Origin: a virus
Reading direction: 5' to 3' (one strand)
Length of the DNA stretch: 23,049 nucleotides
Virus record (IMG/VR): IMGVR_UViG_3300005527_000308
Coordinates: 1-23,049 of that record
The notes beneath the pieces were generated by a model. It was not told the origin of the DNA and did no database searches. It saw only the letters and a list, made by a program, of their open reading frames with translations. Of the stretch, positions 2,500-21,660 are shown piece by piece. The position numbers were made by a program, and so were the translations under genes. Every line of letters begins with the position of its first letter. The first letter of the stretch is position 1.

Positions 2500-3837
2500 T
2501 TGAAACTCCAAGACTACCAACCCCGCAGCGTGTTCTTGCCGCTGCACAACAGAAGCAAGCGGTGGGCGTGCGTAGTCGCACACAGACGCGCAGGCAAGAC
2601 GGTAGCCATGTGCGCCGATCTAGTCATAGGCGCACTAGAGACGGCACTGCCGCGTCCACAGTTCGCCTACCTTGCCCCATTCCGAGATCAGGCTAAGCGC
2701 GTAGCTTGGAACTACCTCAAAGAGCTAACGAAAGACGTCTGGCTCAAAGACCCCAACGAGAGCGAACTGCGGATCGACATCCGCAACGGTCATGGTGGTG
2801 AGAGCCGCATCTATGTGGCGGGCGCTGACAACCCGGACGCGCTACGCGGCATGTACTTTGATGGCGTGGTGCTGGACGAGACGGGCCAGATGCGCCCGAG
2901 CGCGTGGTACAGCGTACTGCGGCCAGCATTGTCAGACCGCAAAGGCTGGGCGATCTTCGCGGGCACGCCAGCGGGAAAGAACTTCTTCTGGCAACTGAAG
3001 GAAGAAGCGCGTCTGAACCCTGACACGCACCTGCTGTTGGAACTCCCGGCGTCAAAAACAGGCATCTTGGACGCCGAGGAACTGCGCGATGCCAAGGCGC
3101 AGATGACGGAGGAGACGTACGCGACGGAGTACGAGGTCAGTTTTGAGGCGGCGATTCCTGGCGCGTACTACGCCAAGCAGATTGGTGAGTTGTATGGGCT
3201 AAACAGAATTGGCGATCACAAGCTGGACCCGAACTTCCCGGTGGACTTCGCGGCTGACTTGGGGTTCACGGACTCCTGCAGCTGGTGGGGCTGGCAGACA
3301 ACGCCAGACGGTTACCGCATTGTTGAGTTCTACGAAGCGGACGGCCAGCCGATTCAGCACTACATTGATTGGGTGAAGTCCAGGCCCTACAAGGTGGGCA
3401 ATGTCTACTTGCCGCATGACGCCAGGGCCAAGAGCCTGCAGACAGGAAAAAGCATCGTCGAGCAGTTCCTCTCCAACGGCATACGCCCGCAGATCGCGCC
3501 AGAACTGAGCTTGCAGGACGGCATCGAGGCGGCAAGGCTGATCTTGAACAAGTGCTGGTTCCATGAGGAGCCGACATACGAGGGCCTAAACCATCTGCGG
3601 GCGTACATGCGCGACTGGGATGAGCGCACGCAGACGTTCAAGTCAAAGCCCAAGCACGACCAGCACAGCCATGCTGCGGACGCGTTTCGTTACTTTGCAC
3701 TGAGTGCGAAACCAGTTTCGTCAAAAGTTCAACCCGGTACTAGAATCTCATCACGCAAAGACAAGGGCGTGAACTACGCCTTTGCCTTGGATGACATCTG
3801 GGACTGCGGGCCCAAGGCCACGACAAGGATCGGGTGA
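2500..3837 (+). CDS. terL: Terminase large subunit (packaging ATPase and nuclease)
   Basis: The motor that pumps DNA through the portal into the prohead and cuts concatemers. The N-terminal ATPase shows Walker A HRRAGKT (residues 28-34), the conserved RGMYFDGVVLDE block with Walker B VVLDE (123-127), and the coupling motif FAGTPAGKNFFW. The C-terminal RNase H-like nuclease shows three acidic positions: Asp253 in FAADLGF, Asp307 in PHDARAK and Asp394 in HSHAADAFRY. Length is 445 aa, typical for compact podovirus-type large terminases. The start is TTG at 2500 with GGAAAG just upstream. The frame is open back to 2476, and no ATG or GTG is available there. The stop overlaps the portal start (TGATG), so the two are translationally coupled. 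Confidence 0.95.
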   Translation: MKLQDYQPRSVFLPLHNRSKRWACVVAHRRAGKTVAMCADLVIGALETALPRPQFAYLAPFRDQAKRVAWNYLKELTKDVWLKDPNESELRIDIRNGHGGESRIYVAGADNPDALRGMYFDGVVLDETGQMRPSAWYSVLRPALSDRKGWAIFAGTPAGKNFFWQLKEEARLNPDTHLLLELPASKTGILDAEELRDAKAQMTEETYATEYEVSFEAAIPGAYYAKQIGELYGLNRIGDHKLDPNFPVDFAADLGFTDSCSWWGWQTTPDGYRIVEFYEADGQPIQHYIDWVKSRPYKVGNVYLPHDARAKSLQTGKSIVEQFLSNGIRPQIAPELSLQDGIEAARLILNKCWFHEEPTYEGLNHLRAYMRDWDERTQTFKSKPKHDQHSHAADAFRYFALSAKPVSSKVQPGTRISSRKDKGVNYAFALDDIWDCGPKATTRIG

Positions 3838-6041
3838 TGGAACAAGTCGAGAAGATTGAGAGTGCCAGCGATTTTGAGAACACCCCGCAGGGGATGGCGC
3901 AGCGTTGGGGCACGGAGATCACTGCTTCCAAGCAGGAGCTGAACAAGTTTCACGATGAGGCCAAGAAGATTCTGGCCCGGTACTTGGACAAGCGTGACAC
4001 CTGGGGCGAGAGCGAGAGCCGCGTAAACCTGTTCTGGAGCACGATGAAGGTGCTTCTGAGCATGCTGTATGCGCGGCCCCCGAAGGCTGACGTCAGCAGG
4101 GCGTTTCAAGACTTCGATGATGATCAGGCGCGTGTAGCGTCTACGATCCTGCAGCGGCTGCTGAACCGTGGCTTTGAGGAAGACGTCAGCGCCTGGGATT
4201 CTGCAGTGCGTCAGGCCATTGAGGACTGGCTCATTGTGGGCATGGGTCAGATTTGGCTGCGCTACGAGGTTGAGACTGAAGAAGTCCCTGAGTCCATTGA
4301 TGCGATGACGGGAATGTTGATTCCTGCCACTGAGCGCATCGTGGAGGAGGACGCTCCGGTTGATTACGTCCATTTTGAGGACTTTTTCTGGTCGCCTGCA
4401 CGCACATGGTCTGAGGTTCGTTGGGTAGCGCGGCGCGTCTACATGACGAAGGACCAGCTTGAGGCTCGGTTTGGCGAGGAGATTGCGCGTGTGGTGCCGA
4501 TGACGTCGGCGCCAAAGACGCAGAACGACCAGAACCCGAAGTATGACCCGTGGTCGCGGGCTGAAGTCTTTGAAATCTGGTGCAAAGAGAACAAGAAGGT
4601 CTATTGGTACGCCAAGGGTAGCGAGGTCATTCTTGATGTGAAGGATGATCCGCTGGACTTGGACGGGTTCTTCCCGTGTCCCAAGCCTTTGGCGGCGAAC
4701 ATTACGTCGGCCAACTTCATGCCGCGTGCGGATTACGTCTTTGCGCAGGATCAGTTCAACGAACTGGATGAAATTAACACGCGCATCACTTGGCTGACCC
4801 GTGCGGCCAAGGTGATTGGCGTGTATGACAAGTCTGCTGATGGCATTCAGCGCATGTTCCAGCAGGCCTCTGAGAACCAGTTGATCCCTGTGGACAACTG
4901 GGCGATGTTTGCTGAAGCCGGTGGCGTCAAAGGCAAGGTTGATTGGGTGCCGATTGATCAGGTGGTCAACGCCATCAATCAGTTGCGCGTGTATCGCCAG
5001 GACAAGACGCAGCAGATTTACGAAGTGCTGGGCGTGTCCGACATCATGCGCGGTAGCTCAAAGGCCAACGAGACGGCCACAGCCCAGCAGATCAAGGCGC
5101 AGTTTGGCAGCACGCGGATGCAGCTAAACCAGTTCTACATTGCTGAGTGGATCAGCGAGGCGCTGCGGATCAAGGCTGAGATCATCTGCAAGCACTGGCA
5201 ACCGCAGACGATTGCATTCAGAAGCAACATTGAGCGCACGCCTGATGCTCAATTCGCGCCGCAAGCCATAGCCCTGCTCAAAGATGAGCATGTGGCTCAG
5301 TATCGCATCAACGTCGAGGCTGACTCGATGGCTGCGCTCGACTGGGCGGCAGAGCGTGATGCGGCTGTGCAGTTCATGCAGGGCCTAGGCGCGTTCATCA
5401 GCCAAGTAGCCCCGATGGCCCAGCAGGTGCCCGAGGCGGGTCCGTACCTGATGCGAATGATGCAGTGGGCGGTGAGCAAGTTCCGCGTCAGCACGCAGAT
5501 TGAGTCGATTCTTGATCAGGCCATTAACGGCATGCAGCAGCAGTTGCAGACGCCTAAGCCGCCTCCGCAGCCTGATCCTGACACGGTGATCAAGGCTCAG
5601 GTTGAGCAGGCCAAGATTCAGAGCCAAGAGAAGATTGCGATGATGGAAGCGCAGTCTGACCAGCAGATTGCGTCTCTGAAAGCCACCATCGAGCTGCAGA
5701 AGATCGAGATGAAGGCCAAGTTCGATCAGATGGCCCAGCAGTACGAGCAAGTGCTGCAGATGATGAACGTGCAGGCTCAGGCTCCGCAGTTCGATAATCT
5801 GGCGAATGCAGTTGCTGACATGGCGCAGAGGAATGCGCAGGGCCAAGAGATGACTGCGGCGCAGCTTGCGATGCTGGCGCAGCAGATGAATCGCAAGCGC
5901 AAGCGCGTCCCAATTCGGGACCAAAATGGCGACATCGTTGAAGTCAAGGAAGTCGATGATGACGAAGAAGACGACGACGAAAATGAGTTGCCGTCAGGAA
6001 TGGCTAACTTGCCGCAGCCTCAAGCGGCGATGGGGATGTAA
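3837..6041 (+). CDS. Portal protein
   Basis: Forms the dodecameric ring at the capsid vertex through which DNA is packaged and ejected. ATG 3837 overlaps the terminase stop and has AAGGAT six bases upstream. A GTG at 3834 would add one residue. The 734-aa length is in the range of large P22-type podovirus portals. The N-terminal half has the usual helical core (VNLFWSTMKVLLSMLYARPP, then IEDWLIVGMGQIWLRYEVE). Residues ~583-645 form a Gln/Lys-rich coiled coil like the C-terminal barrel helices of long portals. The C-terminus has an acidic patch (VDDDEEDDDENE) followed by a Met-Gly tail. Position after the large terminase and overall pattern make this firm. The stop overlaps the next small gene by TAATG. 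Confidence 0.9.
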   Translation: MEQVEKIESASDFENTPQGMAQRWGTEITASKQELNKFHDEAKKILARYLDKRDTWGESESRVNLFWSTMKVLLSMLYARPPKADVSRAFQDFDDDQARVASTILQRLLNRGFEEDVSAWDSAVRQAIEDWLIVGMGQIWLRYEVETEEVPESIDAMTGMLIPATERIVEEDAPVDYVHFEDFFWSPARTWSEVRWVARRVYMTKDQLEARFGEEIARVVPMTSAPKTQNDQNPKYDPWSRAEVFEIWCKENKKVYWYAKGSEVILDVKDDPLDLDGFFPCPKPLAANITSANFMPRADYVFAQDQFNELDEINTRITWLTRAAKVIGVYDKSADGIQRMFQQASENQLIPVDNWAMFAEAGGVKGKVDWVPIDQVVNAINQLRVYRQDKTQQIYEVLGVSDIMRGSSKANETATAQQIKAQFGSTRMQLNQFYIAEWISEALRIKAEIICKHWQPQTIAFRSNIERTPDAQFAPQAIALLKDEHVAQYRINVEADSMAALDWAAERDAAVQFMQGLGAFISQVAPMAQQVPEAGPYLMRMMQWAVSKFRVSTQIESILDQAINGMQQQLQTPKPPPQPDPDTVIKAQVEQAKIQSQEKIAMMEAQSDQQIASLKATIELQKIEMKAKFDQMAQQYEQVLQMMNVQAQAPQFDNLANAVADMAQRNAQGQEMTAAQLAMLAQQMNRKRKRVPIRDQNGDIVEVKEVDDDEEDDDENELPSGMANLPQPQAAMGM

Positions 6042-10161: not shown

Positions 10162-11145
10162 ATGGCTTTTGCAAATTCGTCGGTAACCGACATCATTGCG
10201 ACGACGATCCAGAATCGTTCGCGCACCATCGCTGATAACGTCACGAAGAACAACGCCCTTTTGGCGCGTCTGCAGCAGCGTGGCAACGTCAAGACCATTT
10301 CTGGCGGTAACGTCATCCTTGAAGAACTGAGCTTTGCCGAAAACGGCAACGCCGGTTTCTACAGCGGATATGACCTGCTGCCCGTGGCTGCTCAGGACGT
10401 CATCAGCGCCGCTGAGTACAACATCAAGCAGTTTGCTGTCCCTGTCGTTATGAGCGGCTTGGAGATGTTGCAGAACAGCGGCAAAGAGGCCTTCATCGAC
10501 CTGATGGAGTCTCGCCTCAATGTGGCTGAAGCCACGATGGCTAACAAGCTGGCCCAGTCTGTGTATTCCAACGGCACCGGCAGCGGTGGCAAGGAAATCA
10601 CGGGTCTGGACGCTATGGTGCCCTCGGCCAACACCAGCGGCACCTATGGCGGCATTGATCGCGGCACTTGGACGTTCTGGCAGTCGAAGAAGTATGACTT
10701 CAGCGACAACAGCATCCCTGGCACGCCTACCGGCGCCCAGATGCAGACCGCCATGAACACCCTGTGGGCGTCTTGCACCCGTGGCAATGACCGTCCTGAC
10801 CTGATCGTGCTGGACACGATCTATTGGGGCATCTACATGGCTTCTCTGCAGGCCCAGCAGCGTTTCACTTCTCCCGACACTGGCAACCTCGGTTTCCCGT
10901 CGCTGAAGTTCATGGACGCTGATGTGGTGCTGGACGGCGGTATTGGCGGCTTCTGCCCTGCCTCTACCGGCTTCTTCTTGAACACCAAGTACATGAAGTG
11001 GCGTCCGCACGCACAGCGCAACATGGTTCCGCTGTCGCCCAACCGTCGCTATGCCATCAATCAGGACGCTGAAGTCCAGATTCTGGCGTGGGCAGGCAAC
11101 TTGACCTGCAACGGCGCTCAGTTCCAGGGCCGTCTGCAGGCTTGA
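10162..11145 (+). CDS. Major capsid protein
   Basis: Forms the icosahedral shell. The 327-aa size, position after the scaffold, strong ribosome site, structured leader and following terminator all fit the most heavily expressed virion gene. The N-terminus (MAFANSSVTDIIATTIQNRS) is a helical arm, followed by a segment like the extended loop of HK97-fold coats (KTISGGNVILEELSF, then FYSGYDLLPVAAQDVISAAE). Then come spine-helix-like residues (FIDLMESRLNVAEATMANKL) and a beta-rich C-terminal half with a conserved-looking DRPDLIVLDTIYWGIYM. No prohead-protease cleavage site or signal is evident, so maturation without N-terminal processing is likely. Class is assigned from pattern and context. Confidence 0.9.
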   Translation: MAFANSSVTDIIATTIQNRSRTIADNVTKNNALLARLQQRGNVKTISGGNVILEELSFAENGNAGFYSGYDLLPVAAQDVISAAEYNIKQFAVPVVMSGLEMLQNSGKEAFIDLMESRLNVAEATMANKLAQSVYSNGTGSGGKEITGLDAMVPSANTSGTYGGIDRGTWTFWQSKKYDFSDNSIPGTPTGAQMQTAMNTLWASCTRGNDRPDLIVLDTIYWGIYMASLQAQQRFTSPDTGNLGFPSLKFMDADVVLDGGIGGFCPASTGFFLNTKYMKWRPHAQRNMVPLSPNRRYAINQDAEVQILAWAGNLTCNGAQFQGRLQA

Positions 11146-13169: not shown

Positions 13170-14762
13170 ATGCCTCTGCGTGATCTGGCTCCCTTCAAGA
13201 CGCCCAGAAGGGCTGCTGCTGAACAAGTTGCGCAGTTAGCGAACATCCCTGCGCCAGTTGGCGGCTTGAACCTGCGCGATCCGATTTCGGAGATGGCGCC
13301 CACTGATGCGGTGATCTTGGACAACATGATCCCGCGTCAGAACGGTGTGGAGATGCGCAGCGGCTACCAGATGCACGTTAATGACGTCGGGTATCCGGTC
13401 AAAACGCTGATGTCATACACGGCGCCCAACCCAAACAACAACAAGTTGTTTGCGGCGGCGAACGGCAAGATTTATGACGTCACTGCATCGCCATCAACGG
13501 TGGCTGTGGCGACAAGCAACAGCACGGCTGATCTGTGGTCATTCACGCAGTTCACGACTCCTGCTGATACGTTTTTGCTGGCTGTGTCTCCTGGCGCTGG
13601 CTACTGGACTTACAGCACATCAAGCGGCTGGGTAAACCGCACGCCATCTGGCTTGCCGACAACAACGCTGCGCACGGTGTCTGTGTGGAAGCAGCGCGTT
13701 TTCTTCACGGCTGAGGCTGACGCTCACCTTTGGTACTTGCAGGCGGTGAACTCTGTTACGGGTTCTGCTGCAGGTTTCCACATGGGCTCTCTGCTGCGCA
13801 ATGGCGGTTATCTGTCCTCTGCGTTCAACTGGACGTTGGATGCCGGTGTTGGCATTGATGATCACTTGGTTGTGGTTGGCACGCAGGGCGATGTCGGCGT
13901 GTGGCAGGGAACTGACCCATCAACGGCAAACACGTTTGCCTTGAAGGGTGCTTGGTACATCGGTCCTGTTCCTGAGTATGGTCGCTATTTCACGCCCATG
14001 GGCGGTGATGTTCTGATCCTGTCTGAACTTGGACTGATTCAGATGTCCAAATTAGTGGCGGGTCAGTTCGTAGATAGTGACCCAGGCCCAGTGCAGAAGA
14101 TTCAGTCTTCAATCAATCCGCTGGTGACGTTGCTGCGGTCAACTCCAAGCTGGGATGTGTTCGTTGCGCCGTCTGCTGATGTGCTGGTGATTCGCCCGCC
14201 TAAGCAGCCCACGGGCGTTTACCAGCAGTTCGGCATGAACATCAACACCGGGTCATGGTGTACGTTCAGCAATATGTCGATGGACTGCGCTGCTGTGTTG
14301 AGCGGCGTGACGTACTTCGCCAACGAGAGCGGATATGTCTACAAGTGCTTCTATGGCCGCAAAGACAACGTAGCTGCCAACGGCACTGGTGGCGATTTGA
14401 TTGAAGGCGACATCCAGACTGCGTTTCAATCGTTTGGTTCGCCTGGGCAGTTGAAGAAGTTTGGCATGGCGCGGCCTGTGTTCATTGCGCCATCTCCTCC
14501 AGCTGTCAAGGTGCGCGTCAATGTGCAGTATTCGTTTACTGACGTTGCTGGCTCGCCATCGTTCGTCAACCCGGTGACCTCGCTGTGGGATGCGGGCATC
14601 TGGAACACTGCAGTGTGGGCAGGCTCTGCAAACACTTATCAAGCGTTTGTTGGCGTGGCTGGGATGGGCTACTACGGCGCGTTGCGCATGAAGGTGCGTG
14701 GCATTGGCGGGACAATCTTTAGCTCAACGCACATGCTGGTTGAGCCCGGTGGAGTGATGTGA
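13170..14762 (+). CDS. Tail nozzle / tail tubular protein B-like (530 aa)
   Basis: Expected to form the tube below the adaptor through which DNA leaves. The N-terminal APVGGLNLRDPISEMAPTDA followed by ILDNMIPRQNGVEMRSGYQ is a recurrent opening of podovirus nozzle/stabilisation proteins. The rest shows repeated strand-turn units (NKLFAAANGKIYDVTASPS, GDVGVWQGTDPSTANTFAL, SGVTYFANESGYVYKCFYGR) that suggest a beta-propeller. Size is typical for P22 gp10-like and shorter than T7 gp12. ATG 13170 is preceded by GGAG. The stop overlaps the next ATG (TGATG). No enzymatic residues are apparent. Confidence 0.85.
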   Translation: MPLRDLAPFKTPRRAAAEQVAQLANIPAPVGGLNLRDPISEMAPTDAVILDNMIPRQNGVEMRSGYQMHVNDVGYPVKTLMSYTAPNPNNNKLFAAANGKIYDVTASPSTVAVATSNSTADLWSFTQFTTPADTFLLAVSPGAGYWTYSTSSGWVNRTPSGLPTTTLRTVSVWKQRVFFTAEADAHLWYLQAVNSVTGSAAGFHMGSLLRNGGYLSSAFNWTLDAGVGIDDHLVVVGTQGDVGVWQGTDPSTANTFALKGAWYIGPVPEYGRYFTPMGGDVLILSELGLIQMSKLVAGQFVDSDPGPVQKIQSSINPLVTLLRSTPSWDVFVAPSADVLVIRPPKQPTGVYQQFGMNINTGSWCTFSNMSMDCAAVLSGVTYFANESGYVYKCFYGRKDNVAANGTGGDLIEGDIQTAFQSFGSPGQLKKFGMARPVFIAPSPPAVKVRVNVQYSFTDVAGSPSFVNPVTSLWDAGIWNTAVWAGSANTYQAFVGVAGMGYYGALRMKVRGIGGTIFSSTHMLVEPGGVM

Positions 14763-15952
14763 TGGCAACCAATCTGGTAATTCCAAGCGACATTCAATCG
14801 CGTTCACCTGAGCAGAAGGCTGCGTACTACGGCCAGCAGCGCATGGCTGGGTTCTCTGACCCGGCAATTCGCAATGCAGTGTCTGGAGCGTTTGGTCCGC
14901 AGCCTGATTCCGACTGGAACTACCTGCTGCAGTTGTCTGGTTATGACAACGTAGCACCTGATGCGTTGTATAGAAGCAACACATCTGGCAACAGCCTGAT
15001 TGCTGCCTTGCGCGGTAACACGCCACAACAGCCTGCTGGCAGCGTGTCATCGTTCTCTATGTTGCCCAATCGGATGCAGCCAACTCCTGCGCCTGCGCCG
15101 ACACCCAGTCAAAGACCTAACTTTTTGAATCAGGTGACTCCGTTTCAGCCTGTTGACGGCACTGGATCGCAGACAACGCCTTCTGGTGGCAATGTTGCCA
15201 ACCCGCCTGGGGGGAGTCCGATTGTTGGTGGAACAACGCCTGCCAGAGCATTGCCAAGTTTTACGCCTTGGGTAAGTTCTGACTTGTCTGGAGAAGAAAA
15301 GGCTGCGCTGTTTAACAACTACCTGCAGCGTGGCTTCACGGGCAAAGACCTTCGTTTGGCTGTAGAGAAATCCTTTGGCAACCAGAAAGAAGCAGATTGG
15401 ACTGCTTTGCTGAATTTCGCATCACAGCAGCCCAAAGACTTGTTGCCGACAAACAATCCACAAGGGTTGTTCAAGAATGAAATTCAAACAGCAGTCAGAA
15501 ATTGGCAGCAGTCTGGAGCCCCGGCGCCCGCGCCCGCGCCAATCGCAGCCCCTGCGCCTGCACCTATTGCCGCGCCCGTGGCAGCGCCTGCGCCGGTTGT
15601 AGCCCCTGCGCCAATGCAGCCCTTTGACCAGGGAAACGACTTTGACCTAATGGACGCGGCGTTAATTGACACTCCTGCACCTGTACAGCAGGAAACGGCA
15701 GCGCAGCCGCTAACCATCAATGCTGACTTTGCTGCCATGTCTCCGCAGCAAAAGGCCGATCTGTACAACAGCTATCTCGGAAGCTACAGCGATGCGGACA
15801 TTCGCGCAGCGATTGAAGCGCAAGTAGGGCCGCAACCAGATGAGGACTGGGCGTATTTGCGCCGTCTTGCTGCGGGTGGTATCGCAGATGTTGGAGCAGA
15901 TCAAGATACGCTGGAAAATGTCTTTGATTTGTATGAACGGGATATGCGTTGA
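14762..15952 (+). CDS. Triple-domain Pro/Ala-linked virion-region protein (396 aa)
   Basis: Not recognised. ATG 14762 overlaps the nozzle stop and has GGAG seven bases before it. The alternative GTG 14759 would add one residue. The protein contains three copies of a ~45-residue helical domain at ~15-60, ~176-221 and ~327-371. Each starts S.(E/Q)(Q/E)KA.(Y/L)(Y/F), continues with a helix ending in a D.(A/D)(I/L)R motif, and closes with a DW..L(L/R).(F/L)A-like block; the first and third copies also share FGPQPDSDW or VGPQPDEDW. They are joined by long Pro/Ala/Gln linkers, the second being a PAPAPIAAP-type repeat. Beads on a string suggest a scaffold, ejection or tail-accessory protein. No catalytic motif is seen. 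Confidence 0.8.
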   Translation: MATNLVIPSDIQSRSPEQKAAYYGQQRMAGFSDPAIRNAVSGAFGPQPDSDWNYLLQLSGYDNVAPDALYRSNTSGNSLIAALRGNTPQQPAGSVSSFSMLPNRMQPTPAPAPTPSQRPNFLNQVTPFQPVDGTGSQTTPSGGNVANPPGGSPIVGGTTPARALPSFTPWVSSDLSGEEKAALFNNYLQRGFTGKDLRLAVEKSFGNQKEADWTALLNFASQQPKDLLPTNNPQGLFKNEIQTAVRNWQQSGAPAPAPAPIAAPAPAPIAAPVAAPAPVVAPAPMQPFDQGNDFDLMDAALIDTPAPVQQETAAQPLTINADFAAMSPQQKADLYNSYLGSYSDADIRAAIEAQVGPQPDEDWAYLRRLAAGGIADVGADQDTLENVFDLYERDMR

Positions 15953-16365
15953 AGCTGACCACTGACGTACCGGGGCAATCGCCGGTCATTTGGGAATGGA
16001 TGAACAGGCAAACGCGCCTGCCTTGGTCAAGTGATCTGCGGTGCATTGCTTCGATGCGTAATGATGGAACGATTGCTTGTGCGGTGGCTTACAACGCTTG
16101 GACAGAAAAGTCATGCTGGATGCACGTTGCTTTCGACAACGAACACGCGGTCACACGCAGCCTCTGGCGTGCGGCGTTTGAGTACCCGTTTGTGACCTGT
16201 GGCAAAGAAGCGGTTTACGGGCTGACGCCAAAGCACTTGGATGAGGCGTTAGCGATGAACAAGAAGTTGGGGTTTCGGCAGATTGCCGAGACAATCGACG
16301 CAGTGATGTTTGAAATGAAAGCCGACGAATGTCGTTGGCTGAAAGGGGTACAACATGGGCGGTAA
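15949..16365 (+). CDS. GNAT-family N-acetyltransferase (putative)
   Basis: Resembles phage GCN5-related acetyltransferases, which move an acetyl group from acetyl-CoA to an amine. The best match is CIASMRNDGTIACAVAYNAW followed by KSCWMHVAFDNEHAVTRSL, then AAFEYPF and a final helix and strand (EALAMNKKLGFRQIAETIDA). The NKKLGFR element is the usual acetyl-CoA-fold C-terminal helix and following turn. The acceptor is unknown; host or virion proteins are possible. Length is 138 aa, at the short end of the family. The start TTG 15949 overlaps the preceding stop (TTGA), so translation is probably coupled; an internal ATG 17 codons in is an alternative. Enzyme genes inside the virion block are uncommon but this kind of GNAT recurs there. 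Confidence 0.75.
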   Translation: MKLTTDVPGQSPVIWEWMNRQTRLPWSSDLRCIASMRNDGTIACAVAYNAWTEKSCWMHVAFDNEHAVTRSLWRAAFEYPFVTCGKEAVYGLTPKHLDEALAMNKKLGFRQIAETIDAVMFEMKADECRWLKGVQHGR

Positions 16366-18517
16366 GGGTAGTCCTCCTCCAGCACCAAACTACGTCGCCG
16401 CGGCTGAAGCGCAAGCTGATGCTTCGCGTATGTTGACGAACATTCAAAACTTCGCCAACCGCCCGACAATCAACACTCCGTTTGGTTCGCAGACATGGCA
16501 GACGTCAGAACAGGTTGATCCTGCTACGGGTCAGACGGTTACGTCATGGACGCAGAACAACACGCTTGCGCCTGGGCTTGAGGCCGCGCTAAACGCGCAA
16601 GTTGGCACTCAGCTTGGTCGCAGCGAGTTGGCTGGCGACTTCATGGGGCGGGTGCAGAACGAGTATTCGCAGCCGTTCAACTGGGGCAATCTGCCGCAGA
16701 TGGCGCAGATGAATGCGCCTTCGCAGTTGCAGACCGGCATGGCTGACTACACGCCAGGGTTGAACACTGACGTTGCATCGCGCACCGGCAATGTGGTGGG
16801 CGGCTTCAACTTTGGTGGCCCTCAGATGGGCGTCAATGCGATGACTGGCGATCTTGCCAGGACAACGCAAACGAGCAACTTGCAGCAGCAGTTTGACCCG
16901 ATGACTGGGCAGATGCGTACTGGCACTGGAACAACTCCTGTAGCTACAGGATTTGATGCCATGCAGGGCGGCATCCAGCGCGGCGTGCAGAACTTTGGTC
17001 TGAACTCTCAGTTCAACCCAATGACCAACGATCTGGCTCGCACTGCGCAGACGGAGAGCGTCCAGCGGGCTCTGCAGATGGGCGACAACCCTGCGCTGCC
17101 GCAGTTTGATTCATCGTACAGGGACAATGTGGCGCGTTCGCTGATGGAGCGTATGCAGCCCGTGCATGAGCGCCAGCAGCAGCAGCTTGAGACGCAGCTT
17201 GCCAATCAGGGCTTTACCGTGGGCTCTGAAGGCTACACGCGGGCATTGGCTGACCTGCAGCAGCGTCAATCGGCAGAGCGGTACAACGCGCTGGATACGG
17301 CTGGCAACGAAGCGCAGCGCCTGTTCAGCATGGGCATGGGCGCTCGCCAGCAGGCGTTCAATGAGGATGTGACGGGCGGGCAGTTTGCCAATCAGGCAGC
17401 GCAGCAGGCGTTTGGTCAGGGCTTGTCTGCCAATCAGTTCCAGAATCAAGCGGCGCAGCAGGCATTCAATCAGGCGATGTCGGCGCAGCAGGCTGGCAAT
17501 CAAACTTTGGGGCAACAGTTCCAGCAGGGGCTTGCAGCGGGTCAGTTTGGCAATCAGGCCACGCAGCAGGCGTTCAATCAATCGATGGGCGCTAACGAGG
17601 CGTTTAACCGCGCCCAGGCTCAACGGTTCGGCCAAGACTTGTCTGCCAACCAGTTTGCTAATCAGGCGCTGGGCCAGCAGTTCTCTCAGAACATGGCTGC
17701 AGGGCAGGCTGGCAATCAGGCTGCTGGTCAGGCCTTCCAGCAGGGCCTTGCGGCCAATCAGTTCCAGAACCAAGCGGCACAACAGGCGTTTGGTCAGAAC
17801 TTGGGAGCGGCTCAGTTTGGCAATCAAGCGCAGCAGCAGTTGTTCGGCCAGATGATGAATCAGGCTGATCTTGCCAACCGTGCGACGGGTCAGCAGTTCC
17901 AACAGGACTTGGCATCTCAGCAGTTCCGCAATCAGGCCTTGGGGCAGGCTGGGGCGCTTGATCTGCAGCGTTTCAACGCTCAGAACCAAGCACTGTCGCA
18001 GCAGCAGGCGCTCAATCAGCAATACGCAGCGTTCCAGAACCAACTGCGCCAGCAGGCCATTGCGGAGCAGATGCAGCGCCGTGGCATGTCTCTAAACGAG
18101 ATGAACGCGCTGCTGTCTGGTCAGCAGGTCAGCATGCCGCAGATGCCATCGTTTGTGTCAGCACAGCGGTCAGAGACGCCGCAGATTCTGCAAGCCAATC
18201 AGATGGGCTATGACGCCGCGCTGGGAGCGTACAACGCACAGCAGGCTCAGGGCGCCAACACGATGGGCGGTTTGTTCTCGCTTGGGTCTGCTGCGTTGAG
18301 CAACCCAGCGGCAAGCGCATTCATGTTCTCTGACAGGAAACTGAAGCGGAACATCAAGCGCATCGGGACGCACGCCACGGGTGTTGGCATCTACGAATAC
18401 ACGATGCTTGGCTATCCGCAGGTTGGCGTTATGGCTCAGGAACTGCAGGCGGTGCGTCCTGACTTGGTGAAGCGGCATCAGAATGGCTATCTGATGGTGA
18501 ACTACGGGGGTCTGTGA
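16355..18517 (+). CDS. Gln-rich 18-residue-repeat rod with C-terminal S74 chaperone domain
   Basis: A 720-aa virion protein. Residues 1-~330 are Asn/Gln/Thr-rich and open with a short Gly/Pro tail (MGGKGSPPPAPNYVAAAEAQ). Residues 334-531 are eleven exact 18-residue repeats of pattern QFxQxLAAxQFxNQAxQQ, suggesting a straight amphipathic helix since 18 residues make five turns. A helical Gln-rich spacer follows. Residues 659-720 form a peptidase S74 intramolecular chaperone domain. It starts SDRKLKRNIKRIG, has the Ser659 and Lys664 pair spaced as in phage endosialidases, and continues with GVGIYEY and GVMAQELQAVRPD. In known S74 proteins the domain trimerises the stalk and then cuts itself off before the Ser. 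AAGGGG precedes ATG 16355, which overlaps the GNAT gene by 11 bases. Most likely a tail or ejection rod. Confidence 0.85.
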   Translation: MGGKGSPPPAPNYVAAAEAQADASRMLTNIQNFANRPTINTPFGSQTWQTSEQVDPATGQTVTSWTQNNTLAPGLEAALNAQVGTQLGRSELAGDFMGRVQNEYSQPFNWGNLPQMAQMNAPSQLQTGMADYTPGLNTDVASRTGNVVGGFNFGGPQMGVNAMTGDLARTTQTSNLQQQFDPMTGQMRTGTGTTPVATGFDAMQGGIQRGVQNFGLNSQFNPMTNDLARTAQTESVQRALQMGDNPALPQFDSSYRDNVARSLMERMQPVHERQQQQLETQLANQGFTVGSEGYTRALADLQQRQSAERYNALDTAGNEAQRLFSMGMGARQQAFNEDVTGGQFANQAAQQAFGQGLSANQFQNQAAQQAFNQAMSAQQAGNQTLGQQFQQGLAAGQFGNQATQQAFNQSMGANEAFNRAQAQRFGQDLSANQFANQALGQQFSQNMAAGQAGNQAAGQAFQQGLAANQFQNQAAQQAFGQNLGAAQFGNQAQQQLFGQMMNQADLANRATGQQFQQDLASQQFRNQALGQAGALDLQRFNAQNQALSQQQALNQQYAAFQNQLRQQAIAEQMQRRGMSLNEMNALLSGQQVSMPQMPSFVSAQRSETPQILQANQMGYDAALGAYNAQQAQGANTMGGLFSLGSAALSNPAASAFMFSDRKLKRNIKRIGTHATGVGIYEYTMLGYPQVGVMAQELQAVRPDLVKRHQNGYLMVNYGGL
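17354..17947 (+). repeat. Eleven in-frame 54-bp repeats
   Basis: Coding repeats of exactly 54 bp with no indels. Shared phrases such as CAGTTTGGCAATCA and AATCAGGC recur in register. The phase is kept across all eleven units, so the length of the encoded rod is under selection or the array is recent. Confidence 0.95.
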
Positions 18518-18870
18518 TGAATGACGAAATGATGTTTGAGTATCTGCTTCAGATGGGCGCCATGCGTCCTGAAGAAGTGGAGATGATGCGCAAGCAAAAG
18601 CAGATTGACGCGCTGCGCGGTGCGTCAATGGACACTCCGCAGGGCCAAATGATCGGCAAGCACTATGTGCCACCTTCGCTGACTCAGTACGCGGCCCAGT
18701 TGGGCCAAGGCTACATGGCTGGTAAGGCTCAGAAGGGTCAGGACACTGCGATGCGCGGCATGAATGACCGCCAGCGCCAGATGCTTGAAGACCTGCGGCG
18801 CAGACGTCAGGGCGGCATGACTGCGGGCGCGTATGGCCCGCCTGACACTGGCGATGGCATGGCTTACTGA
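18517..18870 (+). CDS. Small Met/Gln/Arg-rich helical virion-region protein (117 aa)
   Basis: Not recognised. ATG 18517 overlaps the stop of the S74 protein (TGATG) and follows a G-run ribosome site; GTG 18514 would add one residue. The product is helical and Met-rich (FEYLLQMGAMRPEEVEMMRK), with a long basic helix (RGMNDRQRQMLEDLRRRRQG) and a Gly/Pro tail. The composition is like its neighbours downstream and unlike an enzyme. It may be an ejection-complex or tail-assembly component. No membrane segment is visible. Confidence 0.75.
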   Translation: MNDEMMFEYLLQMGAMRPEEVEMMRKQKQIDALRGASMDTPQGQMIGKHYVPPSLTQYAAQLGQGYMAGKAQKGQDTAMRGMNDRQRQMLEDLRRRRQGGMTAGAYGPPDTGDGMAY

Positions 18871-18879
18871 GGATTCATC

Positions 18880-20079
18880 ATGGCCGAGGAGTTCTACATT
18901 GATTCCATGAGGCGGCGCATGCTGCCCATGTCGCTTGGCGTGTCATCTCCTGGCGGTGTGCTGACTCAGAACGTGCAGGCTGCGCCAGCGTTGCCGCGCT
19001 CGATGCAGTTGCGCAGGCAGCGTGATGAGTTGATGGCGCAGGAAGATGACATGAGCGCACTCCAAGCCTACGGGCGGCAGCAGGGCGAAGCAGGGCAGAC
19101 GGCCATGCTAAATGCTCTGGCTGCGCAGTTTGCTGGCGAGCGGTTTGAGCCTGTGCAGACGCAGTTTCTGAGGCGTGCAGCCGCAGCCCAGCAGCCCATG
19201 CGCGTTGGCAAGGGCATGGTGACGCCTGACGGTCAGTTCATCATGGACCCAGGCGCACGGCGCGAAGCGCAGGTTGCTCGGATGTCCGGTGAGATCGAGT
19301 TGGCTGATCGGCTTGAGGCGCAGGCGGCGAGTCAGGCTGAGAGGTTGCAGGCGCAGCAAGCGGCACAGGCAGAGCGTCTTGCAGCACAAGAAGCGCAGGC
19401 TAGGCGCGATGCTGATTTGCGACGTGAACTGAAGACGATGGGCGGCGGTGGCTCACAGCCTTACTTCCAGCCTGTTCAGACTGCGCAGGGCGTGTATGCG
19501 TTTAACTCGCGCTTGGGGCGTATGGAGTTGGTTGCTGGTCCTGATGGCAAGCCCATCATTGGCGCGGCGGCTGATCCAACATTGCAGGGCGCAATTGCTG
19601 GTGCAAAGACCACTGGATCAGAACTGGCAAAGCAGGGCACTGAAGCAATCGCCGCAGGCAAGACTGGCGACAAACTGCTGACGGCGTTGACGCAAGCAGA
19701 AGGCATCCTCAAGGCAGGCCCGACTGGTAGCGGAGCAGGCGCTGCACTTGATGCTGCAGGCCGCGCTGTAGGCGTCAGCAGAGACGCCGCAGTCAAGGCT
19801 GGTCAGCTTGAAACGCTGTCAGGCTGGCTGGTTGCCAATGTGCCGCGTATGGAAGGCCCGCAGTCGAACTTTGATGTGCAGGTTTACACCACAATGGCGG
19901 GCAAGGTTGGTGACAGGACTGTGCCTGTGCGCGAGCGACTGGCTGCGTTGGATGAATTGCGCAAACTGCAGACCAAGTACAAGAGTTTGAATCAGGGCGC
20001 AGCGCCAAGTGGCGCAGGCAATCTCAGCGCAGCAGAACAAGCTGAACTTGAGGCACTTCGCAAGAAGTTTGGAAGGTAA
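18880..20079 (+). CDS. Putative internal virion / ejection protein, coiled-coil (399 aa)
   Basis: Function inferred from context. Residues 1-~140 are Met/Gln/Arg-rich helix (MRRRMLPMSLGVSSPGG, then LRRQRDELMAQEDDMSALQA). Residues ~140-185 are an Ala/Gln/Arg coiled coil (AERLQAQQAAQAERLAAQEA). After GGGGSQPYFQ a globular half begins (GVYAFNSRLGRMELVAGPDG), with glycine-rich and helical segments ending in LSAAEQAELEALRKKFGR. This kind of protein is usual in the ejection cluster of podovirus-like genomes, between the nozzle and the tail fibre. Start ATG 18880 has GAGG nearby. No lysozyme, protease or transglycosylase motif was seen, so a structural rather than lytic role is preferred. Confidence 0.7.
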   Translation: MAEEFYIDSMRRRMLPMSLGVSSPGGVLTQNVQAAPALPRSMQLRRQRDELMAQEDDMSALQAYGRQQGEAGQTAMLNALAAQFAGERFEPVQTQFLRRAAAAQQPMRVGKGMVTPDGQFIMDPGARREAQVARMSGEIELADRLEAQAASQAERLQAQQAAQAERLAAQEAQARRDADLRRELKTMGGGGSQPYFQPVQTAQGVYAFNSRLGRMELVAGPDGKPIIGAAADPTLQGAIAGAKTTGSELAKQGTEAIAAGKTGDKLLTALTQAEGILKAGPTGSGAGAALDAAGRAVGVSRDAAVKAGQLETLSGWLVANVPRMEGPQSNFDVQVYTTMAGKVGDRTVPVRERLAALDELRKLQTKYKSLNQGAAPSGAGNLSAAEQAELEALRKKFGR

Positions 20080-20082
20080 GCA

Positions 20083-21660
20083 ATGGACGCTCGCCAAGAA
20101 CTTGAAGAACTGCGCAGGCTTGAGGCGCTTGAGCGCAAGGCCGCAGGCCAAAGCGCGGCTCCAAGTCCTGCCGCTGCACCTACTCCCACACGCGGCGAAC
20201 TGATTGCAAAGGAAGCCAGAGACTTTGTGCGTCCAATTGGCAACCTTGCTGCGGGCGCTTTGCGTGGTGCTGGGTCCATCGGTGCAACGCTGCTGACGCC
20301 TTACGACTTGCTTGCAGGCAACACCAAGTCCATTGGCAACCCTGAGCGCAGGCAGGCAATGGATGAGGGATTGCGCTCGCTGGGCGCTGACCCTGAGTCC
20401 ATGCTGTATCAAGGCGGCAAGATCGCGGGAGAGATTGCAGGCACTGCTGGCGCTGGTGGAGTCCTTGCCAACGTCACCCGCGCAGCAGGCGCTCCGCAAA
20501 TGCTTGTACGCGCTTTGCGTACTGGCGGCATGGCCCCAGGCTCAATGGCTGCGCGTACTGCTGGTGGCGCTGTGACAGGCGGCGCAGCCGGTGCAATGGT
20601 CAACCCAGAAGACACGCTGACAAGCGCGGCTGTAGGCGGCGCGTTGCCTGCTGCTGGCAAGGTGCTAAAGGGCGCGGTTGCCGCTGGCAGAGAGATGGTT
20701 GGCGCTACCACTGGTGCAGGCAGCGAGGCTTTGCGCGGAGCGTATGCAGCAGGCAGGGCAGGCGGGACTGAAGCCAAGGCCTTCCGCGAGAACATGCGTG
20801 GCAATGCCAACATGATGGATGTTCTGGATGACGCCAAGGCTAACCTTGAAACGATCAGGCAGAACAGGTCTGCGCAGTACCGTCAGAACATGGGTTCTGT
20901 GACGTCTGACAAGACGGTGCTTGATCTTAATCCAGTCAACAAGGCTGTGCAGGACTCTGTTGATCGGTTCACGTTTAAGGGTCAGGCCCGCAACCCGCAG
21001 GTTTTGGACGCTCTGCAGAAGGTTGGCGATGAAGTCAACGCATGGCGCCAGCTTGACCCGGCTCAGTTCCATACTCCAGAAGGCTTGGACGCGCTGAAGC
21101 AGCGCATTGGGGCGATTAAGAGTGCGGCCCCGATTGAAGCGCGTGATGTACGCGCTGCAGTTGACAATGTGTACAACAGCGTCAAGCGGCAGATTGAGGC
21201 TCAAGCCCCAACTTATGCCAAGACGATGAAGGAATACACAGAAGCGTCCGATTTGATTGATGAAATCACTCGCACCCTTTCGCTTGGTGACCGCGCTACT
21301 GCTGACACTGCCATGCGTAAACTTCAGTCGATCATGCGCAACAACGTCAACACCAACTATGGCGCTCGCGCTCAGTTGATGGATGAACTGGAGCAGCAGG
21401 GTGGGCGGCAGTTGCGTCCTGCGCTCGCCGGTCAGGCGCTTAACGAATTCATGCCGCGTGGCATTCAGCGTGGCGTCAGCGGGTTGTCTGCGCTTGGCGC
21501 TGGCTCACTTGGTGGCATCCCTGCAGCGGTTGGCACCGCAGCCGTGTCCTCGCCGCGTCTGATGGGTGAAGCGGCATTCATGGCCGGTCAAGCAGACCCC
21601 TACATCGAGGCGCTCCGGCGCAGTTTGTATCGCGCCGCCCCTGTGCTTGGCGCTCAGTAA
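20083..21660 (+). CDS. Putative DNA-ejection protein with Gly/Ala membrane-active segments (525 aa)
   Basis: Function inferred. Residues 1-~25 are charged helix (ARQELEELRRLEALERKAAG). Residues ~50-75 and ~105-195 are Gly/Ala-rich with small-residue spacing (GNLAAGALRGAGSIGATLLT; GGKIAGEIAGTAGAGGVLAN; AARTAGGAVTGGAAGAMV), a glycine-zipper pattern typical of helices that insert in membranes. Residues ~230-420 are soluble helix bundles (NLETIRQNRSAQYRQNMGSV). A final Gly/Ala block (GLSALGAGSLGGIPAAVGTA) precedes a short helical tail. Together with the two genes before it, this looks like the set of proteins ejected with DNA to form a channel across the envelope, as T7 gp14-gp16 and P22 gp7/16/20 do. 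No direct homology is claimed. Confidence 0.7.
   Translation: MDARQELEELRRLEALERKAAGQSAAPSPAAAPTPTRGELIAKEARDFVRPIGNLAAGALRGAGSIGATLLTPYDLLAGNTKSIGNPERRQAMDEGLRSLGADPESMLYQGGKIAGEIAGTAGAGGVLANVTRAAGAPQMLVRALRTGGMAPGSMAARTAGGAVTGGAAGAMVNPEDTLTSAAVGGALPAAGKVLKGAVAAGREMVGATTGAGSEALRGAYAAGRAGGTEAKAFRENMRGNANMMDVLDDAKANLETIRQNRSAQYRQNMGSVTSDKTVLDLNPVNKAVQDSVDRFTFKGQARNPQVLDALQKVGDEVNAWRQLDPAQFHTPEGLDALKQRIGAIKSAAPIEARDVRAAVDNVYNSVKRQIEAQAPTYAKTMKEYTEASDLIDEITRTLSLGDRATADTAMRKLQSIMRNNVNTNYGARAQLMDELEQQGGRQLRPALAGQALNEFMPRGIQRGVSGLSALGAGSLGGIPAAVGTAAVSSPRLMGEAAFMAGQADPYIEALRRSLYRAAPVLGAQ

Follow-up and report, generated by a model that had tools for sequence, protein, structure and literature searches.

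Structural gene module

The window, i.e. the whole stretch of 23,049 nucleotides that was analysed (IMG/VR record IMGVR_UViG_3300005527_000308), carries the structural gene module of an Mx8-like podovirus, as judged from the identities of its major capsid protein (MCP), portal, tubular tail B (tubeB) and IVPA proteins to those of Mx8. The following genes were assigned to this module:

3834..6041, + strand: portal protein (40% identity to Mx8; phrog_12082, E=1.1e-165)
10162..11145, + strand: major capsid protein (62% identity to the Mx8 major virion protein; phrog_9953, E=1.8e-110)
13170..14762, + strand: tubular tail B / P22 gp10-like stabilization protein (30% identity over 554 aligned positions to Mx8 p52)
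15949..16365, + strand: IVPA-type acetyltransferase-fold protein in the slot of the P22 gp14 homologue (phrog_4470, E=1.4e-22; 35% identity to Mx8 p53; role according to PMC10386132)
16355..18517, + strand: most likely an IVPB-type internal virion (ejection) protein, 720 aa (PHROG 6121, E=1.5e-51; BLASTP to Mx8 p54, E=5e-15)
18514..18870, + strand: 118-aa protein at the position of Mx8 p55, adjoining IVPB in 62 loci
18880..20079, + strand: putative third ejection protein, by position only (Mx8 virion structural protein AAK94391.1)
20083..21660, + strand: putative fourth ejection protein, by position only (Mx8 virion structural protein AAK94392.1)

The PhiGT1 protein in the slot equivalent to 13170..14762 is annotated as tubular tail B. 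No pairwise similarity was detected between the products of the last two genes and AAK94391.1 and AAK94392.1, respectively, and BLAST gave no significant match of the 118-aa protein to Mx8 p55. For the latter protein a weak Pfam match to Terminase_6 was obtained (E=0.014, below the cut-off). The order MCP-tubeB-IVPA-IVPB-118 aa-IVPC(-IVPD), in which the last one or two are putative ejection proteins, is kept in relatives, and the order of the module matches that of Mx8 and, save for the 118-aa gene, that of PhiGT1. One extra ORF (14759-15952) is located in the window between tubeB and IVPA; its 397-aa product contains three similar modules of ~40 aa with Ala/Pro linkers, and BLAST matches were present in only 3 related loci.

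Gene family and gene slot

The gene at 16355..18517 lies directly after IVPA, with tubeB upstream and further virion proteins downstream. In P22 the gene order is 26-14-7-20-16, and the products of genes 7, 20 and 16 are injection proteins. In the study of PhiGT1 the IVPA gene was described as the homologue of P22 gene 14, and IVPB, which was counted in the ejectosome set, matched the syntenic Mx8 gene as part of a podoviral gene set (PMC10386132); PhiGT1_17 is the protein named IVPB according to our reading of the gene order. Because the gene order of the window parallels the modules of P22, PhiGT1 and Mx8, the family was assigned to the ejection proteins by its slot.

All 47 family members matched PHROG 6121, which is labelled 'virion structural protein' (head and packaging), and the homologues of PhiGT1 and Mx8 carry a structural annotation as well. 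The best PHROG 6121 stretch of the window protein (E=1.5e-51) takes in its C-terminal Peptidase_S74 (S74) part. The match to the family is independent of this domain: it was obtained with the S74-less relative L013 (E=1.8e-43) and with S74-trimmed Mx8 p54 (E=1.6e-63), and Mx8 p54 and the PhiGT1, pCB2047 and RHph proteins stay members after trimming. The window protein is about 31% identical to Mx8 p54 overall, and 24 of 46 residues (52%) are identical at the N-terminus. Additionally, 27 of the 47 members matched PHROG 4287 'DNA ejection protein', a match that may be based largely on the S74 part. On the basis of sequence and gene order, gene family and gene slot are well supported, and the product is most likely an ejection protein, carried in the head of a short-tailed phage. 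A reading of 16355-18517 as a fibre gene was rejected: slot and homology both point to an ejection protein, and a fibre-like gene is present elsewhere (21676-end). The composition of the repeat array described below speaks against beta structure upstream of S74.

Distant relatives on long contigs were found in assemblies of Nitrosovibrio, Lacisediminimonas and Herminiimonas, which points to Gram-negative hosts. A profile search yielded no PDB relative for the structural part of the protein; the sole significant match, 6f45, falls in the S74 part, and matches to T4 lysozyme were discarded as not significant.

Mx8 p54 and PhiGT1 IVPB resemble the window protein in their membership of PHROG 6121, in the slot after IVPA and in a short C-terminal S74 domain. 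With about 330 aa they are without the 18-residue array, whereas the window protein has an insertion of ~200 residues in addition to a ~20-residue array. P22 gp7 (PF25688, PHROG 598) shares with the window protein the slot after gp14/IVPA, a composition rich in Gly, Ala, Gln and Asn and a Gly-rich hydrophobic C-terminus, but has no 18-residue array. No match to PHROG 598 was found among the S74-trimmed members of PHROG 6121, the profile comparison with gp7 gave an hhalign probability of 0.3-0.5%, and no sequence or profile similarity to gp7 was detected.

Domain organization of the 720-aa protein

The protein was divided into the following parts on the basis of alignments, repeat analysis and profile matches:

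16355..16729, + strand: conserved N-terminal domain, aa 1-125, with the Gly/Pro-rich start MGGKGSPPPAPNY (alignments; Mx8 p54 N-terminus)
16736..17098, + strand: second, degenerate array with a unit of ~20 residues (FDPMTG...), aa 128-248 (autocorrelation at 20 and 40)
17099..17371, + strand: conserved core 1, aa 249-339, the last part of which is a degenerate repeat unit (alignment)
17372..17965, + strand: array of 11 units of 18 residues each, aa 340-537 (consensus [AGS]AxQF(x)NQAx[QG]Q[AQ]FxQx[LM])
17966..18154, + strand: conserved core 2, aa 538-600, with RQQAIAEQMQRRGMSLNEMNALLSGQQV (alignments)
18155..18328, + strand: C-terminal tail of the structural part, aa 601-658, Gly/Ala/Phe-rich with GGLFSLGSAAL (end point of S74-less relatives)
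18329..18514, + strand: short Peptidase_S74 domain, aa 659-720 (PF13884; Ser659 at 18329-18331, Lys664 at 18344-18346)

The number of ~20-residue units in aa 128-248 varies among relatives in length steps of 20, and residues of core 1 are kept as far as Mx8 and PhiGT1. The initial annotation had the 18-residue repeats ending in the S74 domain; the two are not directly joined, as ~120 conserved residues (aa 538-658) separate them.

The 18-residue array

The autocorrelation of the 720-aa protein was 0.446 at lag 18 and 0.506 at lag 72, compared to a mean of 0.22 and a maximum of no more than 0.29 for the best lag in shuffled controls (n=2000). A position model placed 11 units in aa 340-537, all spaced by exactly 18 residues, and a looser, family-trained model added three degenerate units flanking this array. 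The eleven repeats annotated initially were hence recovered with their spacing, but they are not exact, since the copies are ~45-50% identical in protein and on average ~50% identical in DNA. The DNA identity was measured on locus L002, which encodes a protein identical to that of the window; there the best pair of copies is 76% identical at the DNA level and synonymous sites are near saturation. Tandem Repeats Finder reported no repeat array in the 18-residue region, by which exact DNA repeats are ruled out.

Fourier analysis of the hydrophobic residues gave a peak at 4.5 residues (F5, A9, F14, L18) and not at 3.6. On an ideal helix F5 and A9 are located at 140-180 degrees and F14 and L18 at 320-0 degrees, i.e. 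on opposite faces, which disagrees with the earlier proposal of Phe/Leu on one face. The strongly conserved Q12, N7 and Q16 lie beside the hydrophobic faces, and the most variable positions are found on one flank. The array is almost uncharged, with 3.5% V+I+T, 46% Ala+Gln and ~10% Gly, and its helix propensity is slightly above its beta propensity. Proline is absent from all 574 units (10,332 unit residues) of the family. This composition, together with indels of helical-turn length (see below), favours a long alpha-helical segment, as had been supposed at first. An array folded as a beta-solenoid, with one coil of 18 residues (four sides of ~4.5 residues) per unit and the protein as a beta-structured fibre, would account for the dominant 4.5-residue hydrophobic period and for the content of Gly and Asn. 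It is regarded as very improbable, since the scarcity of V, I and T, the abundance of Ala and Gln and the balance of propensities speak against it, and since the length exceptions of 4 and 7 residues observed in relatives fit helical turns and not solenoid coils.

Copy number and phase in relatives

About 100 related loci were gathered from IMG/VR. The copy number ranged from 1 to 17 units by strict count, and from 2 to 19 by loose count in array-bearing proteins; a count among related phages, suggested initially as a check for a fixed length, thus showed that the length is not fixed. By loose count L069 and L013 are 16 units apart (19 vs 3) with cores that are 93% identical, and L037 and L057 are 4 units apart (14 vs 10) at 98% core identity. 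Another pair has 9 and 3 units at 87% core identity.

The spacing of the units is strict. It amounts to 18 residues in 532 of 534 cases, the exceptions being 25 (18+7) and 36. In 34 of 37 anchorable proteins the distance between the two cores leaves a remainder of 2 when divided by 18, and the other three deviate by 4 residues, roughly one turn of a helix; the neighbouring N-terminal repeat follows no mod-18 rule. Indels in the array region correspond to whole or near-whole helical turns. As the array copies are old (~50% DNA identity), the phase has been maintained over a long time. Tandem duplication alone would also favour steps of 18 residues, and the stronger points are therefore that shorter indels are almost missing from old copies, and the array of the distant relative L125 (L125:6428-8179) from a gammaproteobacterial MAG, in which an unrelated 18-residue array, FGQGMSLSQLEQAQQAQQ, occupies the equivalent site. 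A short 11-residue repeat is also present at the array site of L125.

The array might instead serve as a mostly passive filler that can expand and is either disordered or loosely helical; its copy number would drift by unequal recombination and leave the length of a conduit unaffected. The range from 3 to 19 units at 93% core identity agrees with such a filler, as do near relatives that manage almost without an array and the comparison of copy number with the lengths of neighbouring genes, in which no convincing correlation was found (two nominal p values of 0.03-0.05 among six tests). However, conservation of Q12, N7 and A9 stays at 84-95% across hundreds of old copies, and indels within the array are nearly absent, which argues for a constrained structure and makes a passive filler unlikely. 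A search of the literature on repeat-length variation in ejection proteins yielded nothing relevant.

The Peptidase_S74 domain

PF13884 (Peptidase_S74) matched aa 659-706 over model positions 1-58 of 58 (E=1.2e-6; 29.1 bits vs a gathering cut-off of 22). Ser659 and Lys664 show the S+5=K spacing of the known dyads of endoNF (S911/K916) and MyRF (S587/K592) (PMC8326128), and the S74 domain with these two residues, present in the initial annotation, was hereby confirmed. Among 47 relatives (set A3), PF13884 was matched by 36, and the Ser-Lys motif was likewise counted in 36. The dyad and the aromatic-x-aromatic motif occur throughout the S74-bearing members, and the dyad is also carried by the distant S74-bearing relatives examined. 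The full 58-position match, the SDxxxK dyad and the aromatic-x-aromatic motif are shared with the S74 (ICA) domains of endosialidase and MyRF. Unlike in those proteins, the domain of the window protein is without a C-terminal trimeric coiled coil, does not sit on a beta-helix as judged by composition, and is dispensable in relatives.

Presence of the domain is independent of the array. In a core tree of 61 proteins 12 were without S74, which corresponds to six state changes by parsimony, and S74 presence was not related to copy number in a rank test on these proteins that ignores relatedness (p=0.84). The S74-less proteins carry 7-17 strict units and include the longest array, whereas Mx8 p54, PhiGT1_17 and EBPR podovirus 2 gp27 have S74 but no array. 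A six-frame search of the S74-less loci detected no S74 except in L025, in another frame. In this locus (L025:5515-7685) the domain is located at the end of the array protein in another reading frame, likely due to a frameshift or sequencing error, or to recoding. Because of the independent variation and loss, S74 was ruled out as the partner of the array.

PAE2_13 of a Pseudomonas phage (L029:7290-8201), whose annotation reads chaperone of endosialidase, likewise bears an S74 domain. This protein belongs to the P22 gp7 family (PHROG 598) and resembles the window protein in its S74 domain; a link to PHROG 6121 was rejected, as it vanishes once S74 is trimmed. The occurrence of S74 on array-less proteins and on PAE2_13 and its absence from array proteins suggest a recurrent add-on of ejection proteins, which the array neither needs nor is capped by. 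From the sequence comparisons S74 is dispensable for the folding or capping of a rod, contrary to the initial idea that it caps a helical rod.

The domain is a short form. Most S74 parts end 62-65 residues past the Ser, the window protein stops at VNYGGL, 62 residues from Ser659, and no alpha4 trimeric coiled coil was found in its S74 part. MyRF trimerizes through its C-terminal coiled coil and is not cleaved unless it is trimeric (PMC8326128). An alternative in which S74 folds and then releases a helical rod, or a tail-tip element, made of three chains would agree with the S74 core with intact dyad and with the role of S74 domains as trimer chaperones (PMC8326128, PMC10769870). Such a rod is nevertheless improbable: S74 is lacking in proteins whose arrays reach 17 strict units and occurs on array-less ones, no frame of the S74-less loci save the frameshifted L025 encodes it, the alpha4 coiled coil is absent, and by its slot and homology the gene belongs with the ejection proteins and not with the fibres. 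The trimer proposed at first also finds no parallel in ejection proteins of solved structure, whose assemblies are hexameric, octameric or tetrameric (PMC8954989, PMC11440229).

Cleavage before Ser659 is plausible. The S74-less proteins stop 27-32 residues past a shared NAQ motif, and the Ser of the other proteins follows 19-28 residues past NAQ, so that the S74-less ends lie within about ten residues of the predicted cut point of the S74-bearing proteins.

Proposed role in DNA ejection

The reading that we consider fairly probable is that the gene encodes IVPB, the second internal virion protein, in a short-tailed phage similar to Mx8, and that this protein would be ejected as part of a trans-envelope conduit, with the 18-residue array as a helical extension segment and S74 as a separable part. 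The protein is read here as a candidate ejection protein with a quantized, expandable array, and this identity agrees with the early guess of an envelope-spanning channel element. IVPB would be packaged in the head and then extruded into the Gram-negative envelope, where it would build part of the conduit for the DNA. The array is predicted to form a straight, nearly uncharged alpha-helix rich in Gln, Ala and Asn, in which 18 residues correspond to 5.0 turns, so that units could be added without rotating one end against the other, and gain or loss of units would keep the angular phase of the flanking conserved cores. Each unit would extend the conduit by about 27 A, and the array of the window would reach ~300 A if it were one continuous helix. 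The two opposite sticky faces could let each array helix pack with neighbours on both sides, and two-faced helices of this kind may be better suited to lying next to each other in a ring or tube than to forming a lone trimeric bundle. S74 would be a separable C-terminal add-on, probably a tag for assembly or self-removal, and the proteins without S74 end near the predicted cut point.

Some observations speak against this reading of an ejected, helically extended IVPB. The hydrophobic period of 4.5 is not a classical coiled-coil signal, although it is readable as a two-faced helix, the Gly content of the array weakens a lone helix, profile similarity to gp7 is lacking, and copy number could not be convincingly tied to the length of neighbouring genes. 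The array could alternatively be a core or portal-plug element in the head, where its length would matter for packaging and not for crossing the envelope. Ejection proteins form coaxial rings on the portal prior to ejection (PMC11440229), and the label of PHROG 6121 refers to head and packaging; no sequence feature speaks specifically against such an element, but the almost uncharged array is not an obvious DNA binder, and we rate this alternative as extremely improbable.

In T7 the ejected gp14 assembles into a hexameric helical channel and the ejected gp15 into a hexameric tunnel (PMC8954989). A further, tentative and rather doubtful step beyond the ejected IVPB would be that podophages adjust how long their DNA-ejection conduit is by gain or loss of five-turn IVPB units, the side-by-side helices forming an extensible alpha-helical tube. 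If this were true, a lineage could match the envelope depth of its host via one gene, in steps of ~27 A. We know of no expandable repeat array described for T7 gp14/gp15/gp16 or the PhiM1 ejectosome. Among the relatives, one ejection protein occurs in versions that differ mainly in how many units of equal length they contain (3, 10, 14 and 19 by loose count), and this natural series makes it directly testable how podophage ejectosomes match differing envelope depths. Proteins bearing S74 are often labelled 'tail fibre' in annotation; the label does not follow from the S74 domain of a phage virion protein alone.
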